Part shown: one piece after another, positions 379 through 11,103 of the stretch
Layout: the number at the start of each line of letters is the position of its first letter
How positions within the stretch are numbered: position 1 is the stretch's first letter
DNA from: Glutamicibacter sp. JL.03c
GTDB taxonomy: Bacteria; Actinomycetota; Actinomycetes; Actinomycetales; Micrococcaceae
DNA: 64,000 bases
Assembly (NCBI RefSeq): GCF_025854375.1
Contig: NZ_CP107575.1
Span: forward strand, 1,178,001 to 1,242,000
Reading direction: 5' to 3'
The notes under the pieces: model-generated
The model's database searches: none
What the model saw: only the letters and a program-made list of their open reading frames with translations
Told to the model about the DNA's origin: nothing
Program-made: the position numbers and the translations under genes

Positions 379-3508
<3,130 letters not shown>

Positions 3509-3511
3509 ACA

Positions 3512-3682: not shown

Positions 3683-3801
3683 GTTACGGCGGTCATAGCG
3701 TGGGGGAAACGCCCGGTCCCATACCGAACCCGGAAGCTAAGGCCCATTGCGCCGATGGTACTGCACTCGTGAGGGTGTGGGAGAGTAGGTCACCGCCGGA
3801 C
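3683..3801 (+). rRNA. rrf: 5S ribosomal RNA
   Basis: The sequence opens gttacggcggtcatagcg and closes with the complementary caccgccgga end. The central block cccggtcccataccgaaccc is characteristic of actinobacterial 5S rRNA. The length, about 119 nt, is normal, and its position after 23S fits an rRNA operon. Confidence 0.95.
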
Positions 3802-3820: not shown

Positions 3821-3855
3821 TGAGGCCCTGGCACACGGTGTGTGTCAGGGCCTCA
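3821..3855 (+). terminator. rRNA operon terminator hairpin
   Basis: Positions 3821-3836 pair with 3840-3855, a 16-bp stem with one G-U pair and a three-base loop, 20 bases after the 5S gene. The downstream T-tract is short (ttt). Position and stem strength support intrinsic termination of the rRNA operon. Confidence 0.75.
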
Positions 3856-4191
3856 CCTGTTTAACCAGTAGTTTGGTGGTGGGCTGGTTGCCGGCTTGGT
3901 GTTGGTGTTGGTGTTGGGGCTGGTGGCCTGGCTCCCTTGTCGTGTTTAAGGGGCGCGTGCCCGCCGGCCGCCCGTAACCGTAATCTTCAACATCAATCTG
4001 GCTGGAAAGTTCATTGAACTGAGTGTCTGACCACATTGCCCCTTATTCCCTATGGTATGGCTCTTTGCTCCCGTAGACTTGAGGGTAGTTGTTCGTGCCT
4101 TTGGAGCACGCTGATTAGTTAATAGTGAAGTGCATTGCGCAAGCGATCACGAAGGTTGCGGTATTGAGATTGCCGCTGAAGGGGACATTAA
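3856..4191. other. intergenic region before the RGGF-repeat gene
   Basis: No gene is evident. The region holds a short GT-rich hexamer repeat (ttggtg three times, 3896-3913). A strong Shine-Dalgarno, gaagggg at 4178-4184, sits 7 bases before the ATG at 4192. I could not pick a convincing -35/-10 pair. Confidence 0.5.
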
Positions 4192-6126
4192 ATGTCTAAC
4201 GATTTCCGCCGTAGTTCCGATAACGGGCGAGGCGACTTCCGGAACTCAGATTCAAACCGCAACAATTCGCGCGATGGCTTCAAGCGCCGTGACGATCGAG
4301 GCGAATTCAAGCGCAACGATGACCGTGGTGGCTTCCGTAACGATCGTCGCGAAGATAACCGTGGCGGCTTCAAGCGCAATGATGACCGTGGTGGCTTCCG
4401 TAACGATCGCCGTGACGATAACCGTGGCGGCTTCAAACGCAATGATGACCGTGGTGGCTTCCGCAATGATCGCCGTGACGATAACCGTGGCGGCTTCAAG
4501 CGCAATGATGACCGTGGTGGCTTCAAGCGCAACGAAGACCGCGGTGGCTTCCGTAACGATCGCCGCGATGACAACCGTGGCGGCTTCCGCCAAGACCGTG
4601 ACGACAACCGTGGCGGTTTCAAGCGCAACGAAGACCGCGCTGGCTTCCGTAACGATCGCCGTGACGACAACCGCGGTGGTTTCAAGCGCAACGAAGACCG
4701 CGGTGGCTTCCGCAACGATCGCCGTGACGACAACCGTGGCGGCTTCAAGCACAATGATGACCGTGGCGGCTTCAAGCGCAATGATGACCGTGGTGGCTTC
4801 CGCAATGATCGCCGTGACGATAACCGTGGCGGCTTCAAGCGCAACGAAGACCGCGGTGGCTTCCGTAACGATCGCCGCGATGACAACCGTGGCGGCTTCC
4901 GCCAAGACCGTGACGACAACCGTGGCGGCTTCAAGCGCAACGAAGACCGCGGTGGCTTCCGTAACGATCGCCGTGACGACAACCGCGGTGGCTTCAAGCG
5001 CAATGAAGACCGTGGTGGTTTCCGCAACGATCGCCGTGACGACAACCGTGGTGGTTTCAAGCGCAATGAAGACCGTGGTGGCTTCCGCGAGGACCGTGAC
5101 GACAACCGTGGTGGTTTCAAGCGCAATGAGGACCGCGGCAATTTCCGCAAGGATGACCGTTCAAAGGGCGACCGCCCGGCACGCGGCCAGCGCTTCGACG
5201 ATCCACGGGCCGAGGCTGCGCGTCCTCACAACCCAGGCGATCTGCGAATCTCCAACCGCGCAGATCGTTCACAGTCTCCAGACATCGATGAAGATGTCAC
5301 TGGCAAGGAGCTGGATCGCGTTGCTCGCGCTCAGCTTCGATACCTCGAAGAGCGTTCGGCAAGCTGGGTTGCCAAGCACCTGGTCATGGCTGGCCGTCTA
5401 CTGGAAGAAGATCCAGAGCTGGCCTACGAGCACACCTTGGCAGCATCCCGTCGTGGCGGTCGCGTAGCTGTGGTTCGCGAAGCTGTCGGCATTGCTGCCT
5501 ACCACGCTGGCAAGTACGCCGATGCCCTGCGCGAATTGCGGACCCACCGTCGCATTTCCGGTTCCGATTACAACCTGCCGTTGATCGCTGATTCGCTGCG
5601 CGCGCTGGGCCGCCCGGAGAAGGCCATCGAATTGGCGCACTCTGAGGAGTCGGCGAACCTGGAAGCTGCCGTCAAGGTCGAAATGCAGATCGTCGCTGCC
5701 GGCGCCTACGGCGACCAGGGCAAGCTGAACGAAGCATTGGCCGAGTTGGAGTCGCTAGAGCAGTTGAACTTCAACCGTGCATTCTCCTTCAGCCCTCGAT
5801 TGTTCACCGCCTATGCTGACCTGCTGTCCGCTGCAGGCCGTGCAGAAGACGCGAAGCGCTGGAACCAGCAGGTCGAGGTTGCCGAACGCGCGTTGGGCAT
5901 CGAGCAGGAAACCGAATCATTCATCATGGATCTGGCTCCGGAAATGGATGAAGAGGAAGAAGCTCCTCGTGCCAAGGACCTGATTGAATCGGGCCAGGAC
6001 GAGGAAAAGGCTGAAGAAGCCGAGGTCGCTGAGAGCGGAATCGACGAGGAAGACGGCCTAGTAGAGATCGCCGAATCCGACACGGAGGCCGGGCCAGCTG
6101 ACGCAGAGGACGAATCATCTAAGTAA
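4192..6126 (+). CDS. RGGF-repeat protein with C-terminal TPR-like domain (Rv1691-type)
   Basis: A 644-residue protein of three parts. Residues about 40-320 are a low-complexity array of RGGFKRNDD (9 residues) and RGGFRNDRRDDN (12 residues) units, usually alternating, with about 25 RGGF motifs. Residues about 365-590 are helical and TPR-like, with blocks such as LRYLEERSASWVAKHL. Residues about 590-644 are strongly acidic. Position before a HAD phosphatase, a 57-residue protein and tlyA matches the mycobacterial TPR protein Rv1691, which as I recall lacks this extension. RGG/RGGF arrays in other proteins bind RNA; any RNA-binding role here is inferred. The ATG is supported by gaagggg 7 bases upstream. 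DNA identity between repeats makes copy number likely to vary between strains. Confidence 0.85.
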   Translation: MSNDFRRSSDNGRGDFRNSDSNRNNSRDGFKRRDDRGEFKRNDDRGGFRNDRREDNRGGFKRNDDRGGFRNDRRDDNRGGFKRNDDRGGFRNDRRDDNRGGFKRNDDRGGFKRNEDRGGFRNDRRDDNRGGFRQDRDDNRGGFKRNEDRAGFRNDRRDDNRGGFKRNEDRGGFRNDRRDDNRGGFKHNDDRGGFKRNDDRGGFRNDRRDDNRGGFKRNEDRGGFRNDRRDDNRGGFRQDRDDNRGGFKRNEDRGGFRNDRRDDNRGGFKRNEDRGGFRNDRRDDNRGGFKRNEDRGGFREDRDDNRGGFKRNEDRGNFRKDDRSKGDRPARGQRFDDPRAEAARPHNPGDLRISNRADRSQSPDIDEDVTGKELDRVARAQLRYLEERSASWVAKHLVMAGRLLEEDPELAYEHTLAASRRGGRVAVVREAVGIAAYHAGKYADALRELRTHRRISGSDYNLPLIADSLRALGRPEKAIELAHSEESANLEAAVKVEMQIVAAGAYGDQGKLNEALAELESLEQLNFNRAFSFSPRLFTAYADLLSAAGRAEDAKRWNQQVEVAERALGIEQETESFIMDLAPEMDEEEEAPRAKDLIESGQDEEKAEEAEVAESGIDEEDGLVEIAESDTEAGPADAEDESSK

Positions 6127-6175: not shown

Positions 6176-7183
6176 ATGCTGATTTCTGGATTTGATTCTG
6201 TCCTCTCCGATCTCGACGGGGTCGTATACGCTGGCGCCAACGCCATCGACGACGCTGTAGAGTCGCTGAACACCCTTGCGGAAGTGAACGTTACTTTGGC
6301 GTTCATTACCAACAATGCGGGGCGTTCACCGATGTCTGTCGCAGCGCACCTGCGCCAGCTCGGAGTCAAGACCAGCGCAGAGCAGGTTTTCGGTTCAGCG
6401 GACGCTGGCGCCGAGTTGCTCGCGCGCGAGCTGAATCCCGGGGCCAAGGTCCTGGTGGTGGGTTCCCCCTACCTGCGTGAATGCATCGCGGTGCGCGGCC
6501 TGGAGGTCGTCGAGTCCCACGCCGATGAACCGGTAGCAGTCATCCAGGGGTTTGACCCCGATCTGTCATGGAAGAACCTCGCGGAAGCCAGCTACGCCAT
6601 CAACAATGGCGCGTCCTGGGTCGCCACCAATTCCGATCTGACCATCCCGCGTGCCGAGGGCATTGCCCCGGGCAACGGCTCACTGGTCAACGCGGTGAAG
6701 CTTGCCACGGGTGCCGAACCCAAGGTCGCAGGCAAGCCGGAGTCCTACCTCTTTGCCCGGGCCGCTGATCGATTGGATTCGCATCGCCCGCTGGTGGTCG
6801 GCGACCGGCTGGATACCGACATTCTCGGTGGCTTCCGCGCTGGATTCTCTACCGCCTTGGTGCTGACCGGCGTCGATTCGCCGCGGACAGCCCTGGGTGC
6901 TCCGGTCGAACAGCGGCCCAACTACCTCATCAACACGCTCGCTGACTTGTACCGGCCATACCCGACCATCAAGGTGCTGGGCTATGGCGTGCAGGTCGGC
7001 GATGCAGTGGCCAAGGTCGACGCCGGTTCCATTGAGGTTTCGGGCAGCGAATCGGACTTGAACGCATGGCGGGCAGCCAGCCATGCCTGGTGGCTGGCCC
7101 ATCCGCGACAAAGCGGGCATGAAGATCCCGAAATCCGGTTTACCGAGCGCGGACTGGACACCCTGCGCCGGGTTCGGGGCTAG
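6176..7183 (+). CDS. HAD-superfamily (class IIA) sugar-phosphate phosphatase
   Basis: 335 residues. The N-terminal motif DLDGVVYAG holds the HAD nucleophile aspartate and acid/base aspartate. FITNNAGRS supplies motif II, and VGDRLDTDILGG near residue 205 supplies the metal-binding acidic motif. The NagD/glycerol-3-phosphate phosphatase subfamily (class IIA cap) fits, and the M. tuberculosis equivalent by position is Rv1692. Substrate is not determinable from sequence. The C-terminal extension after about residue 265 carries WRAASHAWW and is common to actinobacterial members. It is followed by the next gene after 2 bases, so co-transcription is likely. Confidence 0.9.
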   Translation: MLISGFDSVLSDLDGVVYAGANAIDDAVESLNTLAEVNVTLAFITNNAGRSPMSVAAHLRQLGVKTSAEQVFGSADAGAELLARELNPGAKVLVVGSPYLRECIAVRGLEVVESHADEPVAVIQGFDPDLSWKNLAEASYAINNGASWVATNSDLTIPRAEGIAPGNGSLVNAVKLATGAEPKVAGKPESYLFARAADRLDSHRPLVVGDRLDTDILGGFRAGFSTALVLTGVDSPRTALGAPVEQRPNYLINTLADLYRPYPTIKVLGYGVQVGDAVAKVDAGSIEVSGSESDLNAWRAASHAWWLAHPRQSGHEDPEIRFTERGLDTLRRVRG

Positions 7184-7185
7184 CG

Positions 7186-7359
7186 ATGAACTCGCAGAAC
7201 CCCCAGCCGGCTCCCGGCCCGCTTGGCATGGACGATGCGCAGGTGGAGCAGGCGCTGTCATCGCTGGCCGATCACGACATTACCGAACATGCAGGCATCT
7301 ATGAGCGGCTGCTCGATGGACTGCAGCAAGAACTCAACCGTACGGAGCATGGCCGGTGA
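7186..7359 (+). CDS. small conserved protein (57 residues, Rv1693-like by position)
   Basis: ATG at 7186 opens a 57-residue frame ending TGA at 7357-7359, with the stop overlapping the GTG start of tlyA. It begins MNSQNPQPAPGPLGMDDAQ and contains DHDITEHAGIYERLLDGL, a short acidic amphipathic helix. Mycobacteria carry a protein of nearly the same size (Rv1693) in the same place between the HAD phosphatase and TlyA. Function is unknown. The gapless fit between two genes and the conserved position are the main evidence that it is real. Confidence 0.85.
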   Translation: MNSQNPQPAPGPLGMDDAQVEQALSSLADHDITEHAGIYERLLDGLQQELNRTEHGR

Positions 7360-8144
7360 ATCGGCTTGATCAAGAACTCGTTACCCGTGCCCTGGCGCGT
7401 TCGCGCACCGAGGCGGCCAAGCTGCTCGCCTCCGGACGCGTCTTGCTCGATGGCACCGCGGTGACCAAGGCTTCGAAGAAGGTTGCGCCAACGGATGAGC
7501 TGAAAGTGCTGCCCAGCGAAGGCGAAGAGTACGTGTCCCGCGCCGGACATAAACTGGCTGGCGCACTAGATGTATTTACCAGTATCGATCCCGCCGGGCT
7601 GCGCTGCCTGGATGCCGGGGCATCCACCGGCGGCTTTACCGACGTGCTATTGCGCAGAGGTGCAGAACATGTGGTCGCAGCCGATGTCGGCCATGGCCAG
7701 CTCGTCGCAGAAATTCGCGAAAACCCCCGGGTCTCAGTTCATGAGGGGCTGAATGTCCGCTACCTCACGCTCGATGATATTGGGGGAGTTGTCGACCTGG
7801 TAGTAGCCGACTTGTCCTTCATCTCGCTGCGGCTGGTGATTGATGCCTTGGCCGGCGCCACCAAGCCTGGCGGGTCGCTGGTTCTGATGGTCAAGCCCCA
7901 GTTCGAGGTCGGTCGCGAACATCTGATCCGCACCGGCGTGGTCACCGATCCGCAACTGCGCCAATCATCAGTCCAGGCCGTTATTGCCAGCGCACGGGCA
8001 GCGGGGCTGAATTTGCGAGGCCTGGCACGCAGTCCGCTGCCCGGCCAAGACGGCAATGTCGAATTCTTCCTCTGGCTCATGGCCAGCGAGAATGCACTGC
8101 CTGCAGATGTTCCGCTGATCGAGCAGAACGTTGACTATTCTTAG
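7356..8144 (+). CDS. tlyA: TlyA-family 16S/23S rRNA 2'-O-methyltransferase
   Basis: 262 residues. An N-terminal S4-type RNA-binding domain (about 1-65, RTEAAKLLASGRVLLDG) precedes an FtsJ-like Rossmann methyltransferase with SAM motif LDAGASTGGFTDVLL near residue 88 and DLSFISLR near 148. Mycobacterial TlyA methylates C1409 of 16S and C1920 of 23S rRNA and gives capreomycin susceptibility; the same activity is inferred here. The GTG start at 7356 overlaps the preceding stop (GTGA), indicating translational coupling. Confidence 0.93.
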   Translation: MNRLDQELVTRALARSRTEAAKLLASGRVLLDGTAVTKASKKVAPTDELKVLPSEGEEYVSRAGHKLAGALDVFTSIDPAGLRCLDAGASTGGFTDVLLRRGAEHVVAADVGHGQLVAEIRENPRVSVHEGLNVRYLTLDDIGGVVDLVVADLSFISLRLVIDALAGATKPGGSLVLMVKPQFEVGREHLIRTGVVTDPQLRQSSVQAVIASARAAGLNLRGLARSPLPGQDGNVEFFLWLMASENALPADVPLIEQNVDYS

Positions 8145-8218: not shown

Positions 8219-9244
8219 TTGCGCCGAATCCTAGTTTTCACCCATACCGGACGCCAAGAAGCGATTGCCGCGGCCATAGAAACTTGTTCCCTGCTCAAGT
8301 CTGCCGGTGCCATAACGGTGATGCGGCGTAAAGACCATGAGGCCATGACCGAGGCCATCGGCAAGCCCATGGACGCCATCGAGATCCTGGGCGAAGACTG
8401 CCAGATCGATGACGTGGATCTGGGCGTCGTGCTCGGGGGAGACGGATCGGTGCTTCGTGCCGCCGAACTTGTCCGCGAAGCCCCGCTGCCACTGGTCGGC
8501 GTGAACCTCGGGCATGTGGGCTTCCTAGCCGAAGCTGAACGCAGTGAGCTCGCAGCCACCGTAGATGCGCTGGTGAACCAGGCCTACACCGTGGAAGAGC
8601 GCATGACCATCGAGGTCAAGGTCTGGCTCGACAATGTTTGCCTTGCGCAGACGTGGGCCCTCAACGAAGCAGCCGTGGAAAAGGCCAACCGAGAGCGCAT
8701 GATCGAGGTCGTGATCGAAGTTGACGGTCGCCCGATTTCCACTTTCGGCTGCGACGGAGTGGTGATGGCAACCCCTACCGGTTCTACCGCATATTCCTTC
8801 TCCGCTGGCGGACCCGTGGTATGGCCAGATGTGGCCGCGCTGATCATGGTGCCCATTTCAGCCCATGCGTTGTTCGCCAAGCCGTTGGTAGTTTCCCCGG
8901 ATTCGGTGATGGCCGTGGAAATCCTCACCCGAACCGATGCCGGTGCCGTGCTCTGGTGCGATGGCCGGCGCACGATTGAACTGCCGCCCGGAGCGCGCGT
9001 GGAAGTCACGCGAAGCAGCCGGCCGGTGTATCTGGCTCGCCTTAACACCACTCCGTTTTCTGAACGACTTGTCAACAAGTTCGAATTGCCGATCACAGGG
9101 TGGCGCGGGCCAGCCAAGGAAGATACTCGCCGCCCTGCTACCACCGCCCTTCCGATCGTTGGGCCTGGCTTGCAAAGCGTCGAGCCGCATCACCGTGATG
9201 AACCGGGAATTCCGATGGTCGCTCGGCCTGAGGACAACGCGTAG
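8219..9244 (+). CDS. nadK: NAD kinase
   Basis: 341 residues; phosphorylates NAD to NADP. Diagnostic motifs are the GGDG motif (VVLGGDGSVLRAAE, near residue 82), NLGHVGFLAE, and TPTGSTAYSFSAGGPVV near residue 182, which shape the NAD site. The start is TTG at 8219 with gagagggg at about 8201-8208 as ribosome-binding site. No in-frame ATG lies closer to the conserved N-terminal strand RRILVFTHTGR. A C-terminal tail after about residue 295 is not conserved in character. Confidence 0.93.
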   Translation: MRRILVFTHTGRQEAIAAAIETCSLLKSAGAITVMRRKDHEAMTEAIGKPMDAIEILGEDCQIDDVDLGVVLGGDGSVLRAAELVREAPLPLVGVNLGHVGFLAEAERSELAATVDALVNQAYTVEERMTIEVKVWLDNVCLAQTWALNEAAVEKANRERMIEVVIEVDGRPISTFGCDGVVMATPTGSTAYSFSAGGPVVWPDVAALIMVPISAHALFAKPLVVSPDSVMAVEILTRTDAGAVLWCDGRRTIELPPGARVEVTRSSRPVYLARLNTTPFSERLVNKFELPITGWRGPAKEDTRRPATTALPIVGPGLQSVEPHHRDEPGIPMVARPEDNA

Positions 9245-9276
9245 GCAACGAGTTTCTCGAAAAATTTTCCACAGGG

Positions 9277-9316
9277 TCGAACAAAGTTACGAAAAAGAGG
9301 TTAGAACACATATACT
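9277..9316 (+). promoter_or_regulatory. candidate LexA (SOS) box and promoter of recN
   Basis: Positions 9277-9292 read TCGAAC-4-TTACGA, matching 10 of 12 defined bases of the actinobacterial LexA consensus TCGAAC-N4-GTTCGA. A -10-like TATACT lies at 9311-9316, 18 bases after TTACGA at 9287-9292, so the box would overlap the -35 element. The fit to consensus is seen; LexA control is inferred. Confidence 0.5.
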
Positions 9317-9360
9317 AAACTCGCACGGTACGACTTGAACTCGAGACTCGGGAGCAGGCA

Positions 9361-11103
9361 ATGATTCAGGAAATCCAGATCTCCAACCTTGGTGTAATCA
9401 CCGAGGCCACCTTACCTCTGGGCCCGGGGCTCACGGTGGTCACCGGTGAGACCGGTGCTGGCAAGACGATGGTGATTACCGCCCTGTCGTTGCTGCTGGG
9501 GCGACGTGCGGATGCCGGAGCGGTTCGCAATGGCGCCAAGCATGCGCTGGCCGAAGCCGTGGTGCATCTGCCACCTGACCATCACGTTCTTGACGCGGCA
9601 AGCCAGGCGGGCGCCTTCATCGAACCTGCCGGCGAACAAAGCGAATTATTGCTTTCACGATCGCTCTCGGCGCAAGGGCGTTCCCGGGCTACTATCGGCG
9701 GGCGCGGCGCCCCTGTGGGTTTGCTTGCTGAACTGGGCCATGACCTCGTTGCGGTCCATGGCCAATCCGACCAGATCCGGCTCAAGGAACCGGTCGCCCA
9801 ACGTGACGCGCTGGATCGCTACGCCGGCCAGTCGCTCAGCCGCCTGTTGAGCAGCTACCAGCGTTCGTACCGACAGTGGCGCTCGGCGGTCAAAGAACTT
9901 TCAAGCCTGAAAACCGAATCGCGCAACCGTGTACGCGAAGCCGAAAACCTGCGTCTAGCCCTGGACGAGATTGATTCTCTTGATCCGCAACCCGGTGAAG
10001 ACGAAACTCTGCGTGAGCAGTCCATCAAGCTGGGCAACGTCGAGTCGCTGCGATCGGCCAGCCAGCAAGCACAGGCCGTGATCGACTCCGAGGACTTTGA
10101 AAACCCTGGCGTCACCACTCTGGTGGAAACCGCCAGGGGAGTGCTCGCGCAGGCCAGCGGTGATGACCCCGTGCTGTCTTCATTTGCCGAACGCGCCGCT
10201 GAATTGGGGATCCTCGCTTCAGAACTTTCCAGCGATCTTGCCGCCTATGCCGCCGATCTGGACGAAGAAGGCCCGGAGCGGCTCGCGCAAATCGAAGCGC
10301 GCCGCGCCGACCTCAGCAAGCTCATGCGCAAATACGCTCCGAGCATTGATGACGTGATCGCTTGGGCGGCCGAAGCCCGTTCCAGGCTGGAACAACTCGG
10401 CGGTGACGATTCGCGGATCGAAGAACTTGAAGGCCAAGTCGTTGAGCAAGAGCACCATGTCGCGTCCCTGGCTTCGGAATTATCCGAGTCACGCCGCAAG
10501 GCAGCAAAGAAACTTTCCGCGCAGGTCTCGGCTGAATTGAAGGTCTTGGCGATGCCCGACGCCAAACTCGTCATCGAGGTCAACGAATTGGATGAGCCAG
10601 GGGCATTCGGCCAGGACGCCATCTCGATGTTGCTCTCGCCTCATGCAGGCGCGTCCCCTCGCCCCTTGGGGAAGGGTGCCAGCGGCGGCGAGCTATCGCG
10701 TGTCATGCTGGCCATTGAAGTCGTCTTGGCAGCGGTTGACCCGGTGCCGACCTTTGTCTTTGACGAAGTCGACCAGGGTGTTGGCGGCAAGGCTGCCGTG
10801 GCCATTGGCGAACGCCTGGCAATGTTAGCCCGACACGTGCAGGTCATCGTCGTGACGCATCTGCCTCAGGTCGCCGCATATGCGGATCGCCATATCAGGG
10901 TGATCAAGAATTCGGACGCGAAATCAAAATCAGGCGCCGGGTACACCGCAAGCGATGTGATCAGCCTTGATCAAGATGCGCGCGTCAAGGAATTGGCGCG
11001 AATGCTGGCGGGCCAAGAGGAATCGGACACAGCTCAGGCGCATGCCGAGGAACTGCTTTCCGAAGCCCAGATTCTAGTGTCATCGCTCACCACTGCAAAT
11101 TGA
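9361..11103 (+). CDS. recN: DNA repair protein RecN
   Basis: 580 residues, an SMC-like ATPase for double-strand break repair. Walker A is GETGAGKT near residue 30, the ABC-type signature ASGGELSRVMLAIE near 440, and Walker B TFVFDEVDQGVGG near 465. Between them, about 160-370, is a long helical region typical of the coiled-coil arm. ATG at 9361 follows gggagcaggc, a workable ribosome-binding site. It sits between nadK and pyrG as in mycobacteria, although the two genes usually found between recN and pyrG there (Rv1697, Rv1698) are missing. Confidence 0.95.
   Translation: MIQEIQISNLGVITEATLPLGPGLTVVTGETGAGKTMVITALSLLLGRRADAGAVRNGAKHALAEAVVHLPPDHHVLDAASQAGAFIEPAGEQSELLLSRSLSAQGRSRATIGGRGAPVGLLAELGHDLVAVHGQSDQIRLKEPVAQRDALDRYAGQSLSRLLSSYQRSYRQWRSAVKELSSLKTESRNRVREAENLRLALDEIDSLDPQPGEDETLREQSIKLGNVESLRSASQQAQAVIDSEDFENPGVTTLVETARGVLAQASGDDPVLSSFAERAAELGILASELSSDLAAYAADLDEEGPERLAQIEARRADLSKLMRKYAPSIDDVIAWAAEARSRLEQLGGDDSRIEELEGQVVEQEHHVASLASELSESRRKAAKKLSAQVSAELKVLAMPDAKLVIEVNELDEPGAFGQDAISMLLSPHAGASPRPLGKGASGGELSRVMLAIEVVLAAVDPVPTFVFDEVDQGVGGKAAVAIGERLAMLARHVQVIVVTHLPQVAAYADRHIRVIKNSDAKSKSGAGYTASDVISLDQDARVKELARMLAGQEESDTAQAHAEELLSEAQILVSSLTTAN

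Follow-up and report, generated by a model that had tools for sequence, protein, structure and literature searches.

Introduction

RGG/RG-rich arms are well known from eukaryotic proteins of the LAF-1, DDX4 and hnRNP type. TPR domains usually bind proteins. In prokaryotes, arginine in low-complexity regions has been linked with RNA-binding annotations, according to the available part of PMC6821194. The closest described counterparts of the protein reported here are mycobacterial. In the accessible sections of PMC7092591, MSMEG_3754 of M. smegmatis and Rv1691 are given as orthologues and as TPR proteins, and MSMEG_3754 is placed among 214 high-confidence proteins from anti-RNAP pull-downs in M. 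smegmatis, while the tagged protein is reported there to have recovered no DNA. The same sections give 'ribosome' as the most enriched component of a pull-down list rich in ribosomal proteins, and describe a lysate treated with RNase A and nuclease, so that the co-purification may be generic. The pull-down fits, weakly, with an association on the RNA or ribosome side. The M. smegmatis orthologue is also listed in a ClpC1 interactome in the excerpted text of PMC10433963, and Rv1691 precedes Rv1692, Rv1693 and tlyA in the lprJ-recN operon in that of PMC3072309.

In the open-licence literature that we searched, we found neither a functional study of such an arm-TPR protein or its rRNA linkage nor a description of the pairing of TPR core and arm or of a position behind rRNA that reaches deep into the phylum; Arg-rich arms on RNA proteins are in themselves of a known kind. 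Rv1691 is about 250 aa long and is not known to have a long arm or to be situated behind rRNA, and its putative orthology with the gene studied here is based on position and name. Here, we describe this gene in a 64,000-nucleotide stretch of the Glutamicibacter sp. JL.03c genome (the window), and we compare its product, its arm and its position with those of relatives across the phylum.

Results

An ordered RGGF array precedes a TPR-like domain

The features of the locus are collected in Table 1. A preliminary description of this DNA had placed the gene between 23S and 5S rRNA upstream and the rRNA methyltransferase TlyA downstream, and searches with Rfam and Pfam recovered these neighbors, although the TlyA score against the NCBIfam tly model (184.2 bits) lay just under the cut-off of 185.8. 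The 23S gene directly upstream is one of six copies in the genome. The preliminary description had also counted about 25 RGGF motifs in 9- and 12-residue units, forming a low-complexity arm on a protein with a TPR-like domain and an acidic tail, and this architecture was borne out by composition and by AlphaFold2. We counted 25 RGGF and 26 RGG motifs in the arm, the RGGF series beginning with a motif that starts at aa 45 and closing with one that starts at aa 306 (window 4324-5118). They are arranged in 14 units of 9 aa (type FKRN[DE]DRGG, with single variants), 10 units of 12 aa (type FRNDRR[DE]DNRGG) and, in addition to those claimed, three units of 11 aa (type FRxDRDDNRGG). Tandem Repeats Finder located the array within 4306-5138, with a best score of 1224 at a period of 312.

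Table 1. Features at and around the arm-TPR gene (window coordinates)
Feature	Coordinates	Strand	Basis
23S rRNA of the operon directly upstream	379..3510	+	Rfam RF02541, 2740 bits
5S rRNA	3685..3801	+	Rfam RF00001, 102 bits
Terminator-like hairpin GAGGCCCTG..CAGGGCCTC behind 5S, then CTGTTT	3822..3854	+	Sequence reading, genus alignment
Candidate own promoter: conserved block CTGAGTGTCTGACCACATTG (4019-4038) to -10-like TAGACT (4074-4079)	4019..4079	+	Alignments
Structured 5' leader with three hairpins (4094-4110, 4130-4150, 4158-4176)	4071..4191	+	12-sequence alignment
Arm-TPR protein gene, 644 aa (stop codon included)	4192..6126	+	ORF list with translation
Arg/Gly/Asp/Asn/Phe-rich arm, predicted disordered, aa 1-345	4192..5226	+	Composition; AlphaFold2
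TPR-like helical solenoid, aa 369-568	5296..5895	+	AlphaFold2, Foldseek, sub-threshold Pfam TPR matches
Acidic tail, aa 584-644	5941..6123	+	Asp/Glu in 27/61 residues
HAD-family phosphatase, next gene	6176..7183	+	Pfam Hydrolase_6, Hydrolase_like
tlyA-like S4/FtsJ rRNA methyltransferase	7356..8144	+	Pfam FtsJ + S4; NCBIfam tly

The arm (aa 1-345) consists of 27% Arg, 5% Lys, 24% Asp and Glu, 17% Gly and 9% aromatic residues, for a net charge per residue of +0.08, and its RGG/RG motifs are clustered beyond what this composition gives (RG dipeptides, z 4.2 over shuffles). Comparison of the repeat units with one another gave pN/pS values of 0.20 for the 9-mers, 0.016 for the 12-mers and 0.27 for the three 11-mers, and all nine variable columns of the 12-mers were third codon positions. 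Because the units differ mainly at synonymous sites, the array is a protein repeat kept by selection and neither a by-product of base composition nor merely a young DNA repeat. When the genome was searched with a codon pattern covering RGGF and the type of the following residue, 25 of the 62 matches fell inside the arm. Two other matches, at genome positions 1291143-1291174, lie on the strand opposite the Rho gene and were excluded as protein motifs. Antisense open reading frames across the repeat (one of 320 aa at 4188-5150, another of 217 aa) were likewise rejected as genes, being mirrors of the repeat.

The C-terminal domain is predicted to fold into a TPR-like solenoid

To characterize the folded part of the protein, we modeled the C-terminal domain with AlphaFold2 from an alignment of 56 sequences. 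The model contains 12 helices, with a mean pLDDT of 90.6 and a pTM of 0.83, and its solenoid is an antiparallel array of helix pairs, the arrangement by which a TPR solenoid is recognized (AlphaFold2, Foldseek). Its best Foldseek matches were TPR proteins (best E 1.7e-4, TM about 0.5), and Pfam TPR matches stayed below the curated cut-offs, at 21.2 bits or less against 23.5-30.1. In a profile search of the PDB, designed PPR proteins (E 2.3e-14) matched as readily as designed TPR proteins (E 7.1e-14), so the solenoid may be PPR-like and, judged by this resemblance, may contact RNA directly. Among 27 diverse members, the TPR core had a mean column identity of 50% and nine invariant residues, seven of them charged; those of the groove include R65, E71, E89, R95, D108, R111 and Y78 in domain numbering. 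The NCBIfam search returned no model for the arm-TPR protein, and none of the searched libraries assigned it a function.

In the full-length model, residues 1-378 had pLDDT values below 50, with most of the arm at 28-39 (alignment of five sequences), and the arm showed no secondary structure except for one three-residue turn; it is predicted to be disordered. The arm also matched the Pfam family RDM3_C (PF23348) at E 6.4e-31, which would make it a beta-solenoid of the RDM3_C kind. The full-length model has no strands in this region, at an alignment depth that is low, and we rejected the match, reading it as a product of repeat composition; a beta-solenoid arm is thus highly improbable.

The Arg-rich arm is widespread and its RGGF syntax is not

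The TPR core was present in 56/58 relatives and the TPR domain in 369/394 genomes of the class. In a sample of the phylum, a single-sequence search found the core in 80/198 genomes and a profile search in 99/198, 81 of these matches being strong and 18 weak (E above 1e-10). We called an arm Arg-rich where R was at least 0.15 over a length of at least 100 aa, taking as the arm start the first Met among the opening 90 residues of each open frame, an approximation that makes arm lengths rough. By this measure, 93/102 class loci carried an Arg-rich arm (genus 14/14, other family members 25/27, order 25/27, class 29/34), with a median Arg fraction of 0.21-0.25 in the arms of the class groups versus 0.10-0.12 in the core. 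Outside the class, 7/19 loci had such an arm, and arms were often short there.

The repeat turned out to be present in the close relatives: all 14 genus loci have the Arg-rich arm, with RGG counts from 5 to 36. One of these loci (L012/L107) has a run of N inside the arm. RG dipeptides exceeded shuffles (z 3.5 or more) in 12/14 genus loci versus 2/107 others. As a general feature, then, the RGGF arm of the preliminary description holds for its Arg-rich character in most of the class; by sequence comparison, dense and ordered RGGF syntax is chiefly a Glutamicibacter trait, and what the wider set of loci has in common is low complexity with a high Arg content. In one distant relative (L057), a different repeat of about RPSSDRP units occupies the same place before the TPR core.

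Two other proteins of the same genome carry Arg-containing arms. A DeaD/CsdA-type DEAD-box helicase (L252, 2153-4066, minus strand) has RGGFRGGRGG repeats in its tail, and Rho (L251, 2015-4159, plus strand) has an R/N/E/D-rich arm.

The class-wide nature of the bias bears on a role in protein quality control, where the protein would be a chaperone adaptor whose arm serves solubility or self-association and does not target RNA. The usual protein binding of TPR domains and the ClpC1 interactome, in the excerpt noted above, speak for such an adaptor. The arms are, however, biased toward Arg and not toward Lys, Ser or Pro, and the gene keeps a position beside rRNA (see below), so that we regard this explanation as distinctly unlikely.

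The gene lies behind rRNA operons across the class and beyond

The adjacency to an rRNA operon that had been noted at this locus was confirmed, and the link reaches far deeper than this locus. We tallied 79 loci with at least 5 kb of upstream sequence, one row per place, taken from complete or long-flank genomes that were chosen non-randomly among the matches listed by E-value. Co-oriented rRNA ended within 1 kb upstream of the ORF in 62/79 loci (genus 5/7, family 4/8, order and class 38/42, named records 9/13, other classes 6/9). Another 8 had rRNA within about 5 kb, for 70/79, and in the other 9 it was farther away or absent; inverted rRNA upstream of the TPR gene was seen at none of the 79. 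A further 80 loci with less than 5 kb upstream, partly second records of genomes already counted, gave 40 with rRNA within 1 kb and 3 with rRNA farther away; the remainder without rRNA comprised 35 with under 1.2 kb of upstream contig and 2 with more. Because rRNA repeats break assemblies, many draft contigs stop a short way before the TPR gene.

As a control, we took 34 rRNA operons from nine genomes of 8 genera and compared all ORFs of at least 90 aa over a maximum of 4.5 kb downstream of each 23S gene. The TPR family lay behind one operon per genome and was the sole downstream family common to all nine. The HAD family, behind the same operons as the TPR gene, was common to 7/9 genomes, and families behind the other 25 operons were common to at most 2. 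The tie of the TPR gene to rRNA therefore exceeds chance, both in the 62/79 loci and in the control. Five class genomes had two TPR matches each, and we obtained the contexts of the duplicates for two of the five (L209/L210 and L253/L254). In these two genomes of one genus, every copy has its own rRNA operon before it, and tyrS lies upstream of just one copy per pair. Together, these results show that location directly downstream of an rRNA operon is a conserved feature of the gene in this class, and one that extends to other classes in the phylum.

Such a position could be inherited gene order. The arm might be a general RNA-binding one, acting in mRNA decay or in cold or stress granules, with the rRNA position a relic of an old tyrS-rrn-TPR-HAD-tlyA cluster. 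Consistent with this, tyrS lies upstream in 46/72 loci with 6.5 kb or more of upstream sequence, often at the edge of the examined stretch, and also in L223, which belongs to another class; tyrS-rrn-TPR is thus an old order. Where rRNA is absent, as in L065 and L098, the TPR gene can sit directly behind tyrS. The HAD and TPR genes are no more than 1 kb apart in 98/106 loci, and in 36 loci with both flanks, mostly from near relatives, HAD was found at this distance more often than rRNA (32/36 versus 26/36). In one locus (L192, 313-3078, minus strand), the arm-TPR ORF continues in frame into the HAD phosphatase, for 922 aa in all, which is either a fusion or a sequencing error.

At greater depth, the two links behave differently. 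In the wider class sample, rRNA was within 1 kb in 27/29 loci and HAD in 10/29 (11 counting the L192 fusion), and in other classes the values were 6/9 and 0/9, where the HAD counts are lower bounds because downstream sequence covered just 0.3-1.45 kb. The rRNA link thus seems the more durable at depth, although inertia is also possible. Since, in addition, no other gene behind an rRNA operon was kept likewise in the nine control genomes, we consider the inherited-order explanation rather unlikely, though a serious contender.

Candidate promoter and leader in Glutamicibacter

Placement behind an rRNA operon raises the possibility of co-transcription. The median distance from 5S to the first start codon was 126 nt (101 loci), and a terminator-like hairpin followed 5S in 98/101 loci. 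The hairpin of the window was missed by a consensus scan because its T run is short. Among 88 loci with an RBS-supported start, the gap between hairpin and start was 60 nt or less in 28 (30-57 nt), and in these 28 the sequence TANNNT was not enriched (10 loci versus a shuffle mean of 7.85); the short gap and the lack of enrichment fit read-through of the rrn terminator in these lineages. As a general rule, co-transcription with rRNA was not established, given the hairpin in 98/101 loci, a median hairpin-start gap of 103.5 nt and a Glutamicibacter spacer of 390 nt between 5S and the gene.

This Glutamicibacter spacer contains the conserved block and the TAGACT box. A sigma70-consensus scan of the upstream region returned 0 sites, and the candidate promoter was instead recognized from the alignments. 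The block and box are kept in L065, where the rRNA is gone. In L063, insertion of a Mutator-family transposase gene (8342-9541, Pfam) has separated 5S from the conserved promoter-leader block. Retention of the block in L065 and downstream of the L063 transposase makes it likely, on this comparison of sequences, that the arm-TPR gene has its own promoter in Glutamicibacter, and the hairpin and candidate promoter between 5S and the gene argue against simple co-transcription there.

The leader spans 121 nt from the TAGACT box to the start codon and contains three hairpins with compensatory changes before the RBS. In the alignment of 12 sequences, 93% of cells were paired, with a covariation score of 0.213 versus 0.004-0.045 for slid pairings. 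Two of five covariation measures were barely above shuffles; pairs changed on both sides were reached by 20/500 shuffles and further pair types by 209/500. Folding of five single sequences was not unusual (z -1.66 to +0.04). A model of the leader found a single site in the genome and, among 64 loci, the four input genus loci and one weak match in Sinomonas (L146, E 0.6). The leader is retained in L065 despite the lack of adjacent rRNA. It matched no known RNA: Rfam gave nothing at the gathering score and nothing credible when E values up to 10 were admitted. The leader appears to be genus-specific and, as a guess, could serve autoregulation by the putative RNA-binding arm.

Discussion

We found that a TPR-like protein with an Arg-rich arm is encoded in almost every genome sampled from a large class, and that its gene lies next to rRNA even in distantly related lineages. 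The position behind rRNA operons suggests, without proof, a role in handling rRNA. Our preferred reading, held tentatively and at a little less than an even chance, is that actinobacteria use the gene product as an RNA-binding adaptor working with rRNA and tied to rRNA synthesis or ribosome assembly. We base it on the proximity to rRNA and the control, in which the gene was common to all nine genomes; on the duplicated genes that each follow an rRNA operon of their own; on the spread of the domain and of the Arg-rich arm in the class; on the low pN/pS of the repeat; on the R-rich arms of the DeaD-type helicase and Rho in the same genome; and on the published excerpts that place MSMEG_3754 in an anti-RNAP list without DNA (PMC7092591) and link Arg in low-complexity regions with RNA-binding annotation (PMC6821194). 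Against it, 17/79 loci have no rRNA within 1 kb and 9 have none within 5 kb, so that persistence of the gene needs no rRNA link; tyrS, rRNA, TPR and HAD form one old cluster, in which near relatives keep HAD more often than rRNA; arms in other classes are often short; the pull-down may be generic; and in Glutamicibacter the hairpin and candidate promoter argue against simple co-transcription.

How could such an adaptor work? The arm would touch RNA weakly at many points, the likeliest target being nascent pre-rRNA, and the acidic tail would compete with RNA for the arm. The TPR groove, with its mostly charged invariant residues, would hold a ribosomal protein, a ribonuclease, a helicase or RNA polymerase. 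The protein would thereby gather maturation factors on new rRNA, and with its gene placed downstream of the operon, its level, and perhaps where it is made, would follow rRNA output. If the protein does act on rRNA, it would fill a gap among the actinobacterial factors for ribosome assembly or rRNA transcription, and its arm would be a natural bacterial example of the RGG type, linked to its likely RNA target by where the gene lies in the genome.

A partner on the transcription side would give a different picture, in which the protein is a factor on RNA polymerase that, for example, acts in rRNA antitermination or counters Rho; its arm would then hold nascent RNA and its TPR domain the polymerase. 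The recovery of the M. smegmatis orthologue with RNA polymerase and without DNA, as excerpted from PMC7092591, is in line with this, as is the R/N/E/D-rich arm of Rho in the same genome. Since the pull-down list is broad, at 214 proteins, with 'ribosome' as its most enriched component, we judge a polymerase factor to be improbable.

On its composition, the arm-TPR protein could possibly condense. This allows a bolder version of the rRNA adaptor, a dedicated nucleolus-like organizer of rRNA in Actinobacteria. Here a disordered Arg-rich scaffold, encoded by a cistron behind the rRNA operon and produced in parallel with rRNA (for certain lineages via read-through of the rrn terminator), would condense on nascent pre-rRNA, recruit maturation factors through its TPR groove and, in Glutamicibacter, set its own amount by binding its leader. 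We put this forward as speculation with a rather small chance of being right.

Several known systems resemble parts of this one. Eukaryotic RGG/RG arms share its disordered Gly/Arg repeats, aromatics and mixed charge; their partner domain is a helicase or an RRM, whereas the arm described here is joined to a TPR solenoid. The DeaD/CsdA-type helicase of the same genome has a short RGGF/RGGRGG arm, but with far fewer repeats and a DbpA-type RNA-binding domain. In the available portions of PMC9312465 and PMC13269538, Caulobacter RNase E of BR-bodies and Bacteroides Rho are likewise RNA-related proteins with a charged disordered region; unlike those scaffolds, the window protein has no catalytic domain, and its folded domain differs. 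The Rv1691 family is alike in gene order, as Rv1691 precedes Rv1692, Rv1693 and tlyA (PMC3072309, as excerpted) just as the window gene precedes the HAD phosphatase and tlyA.
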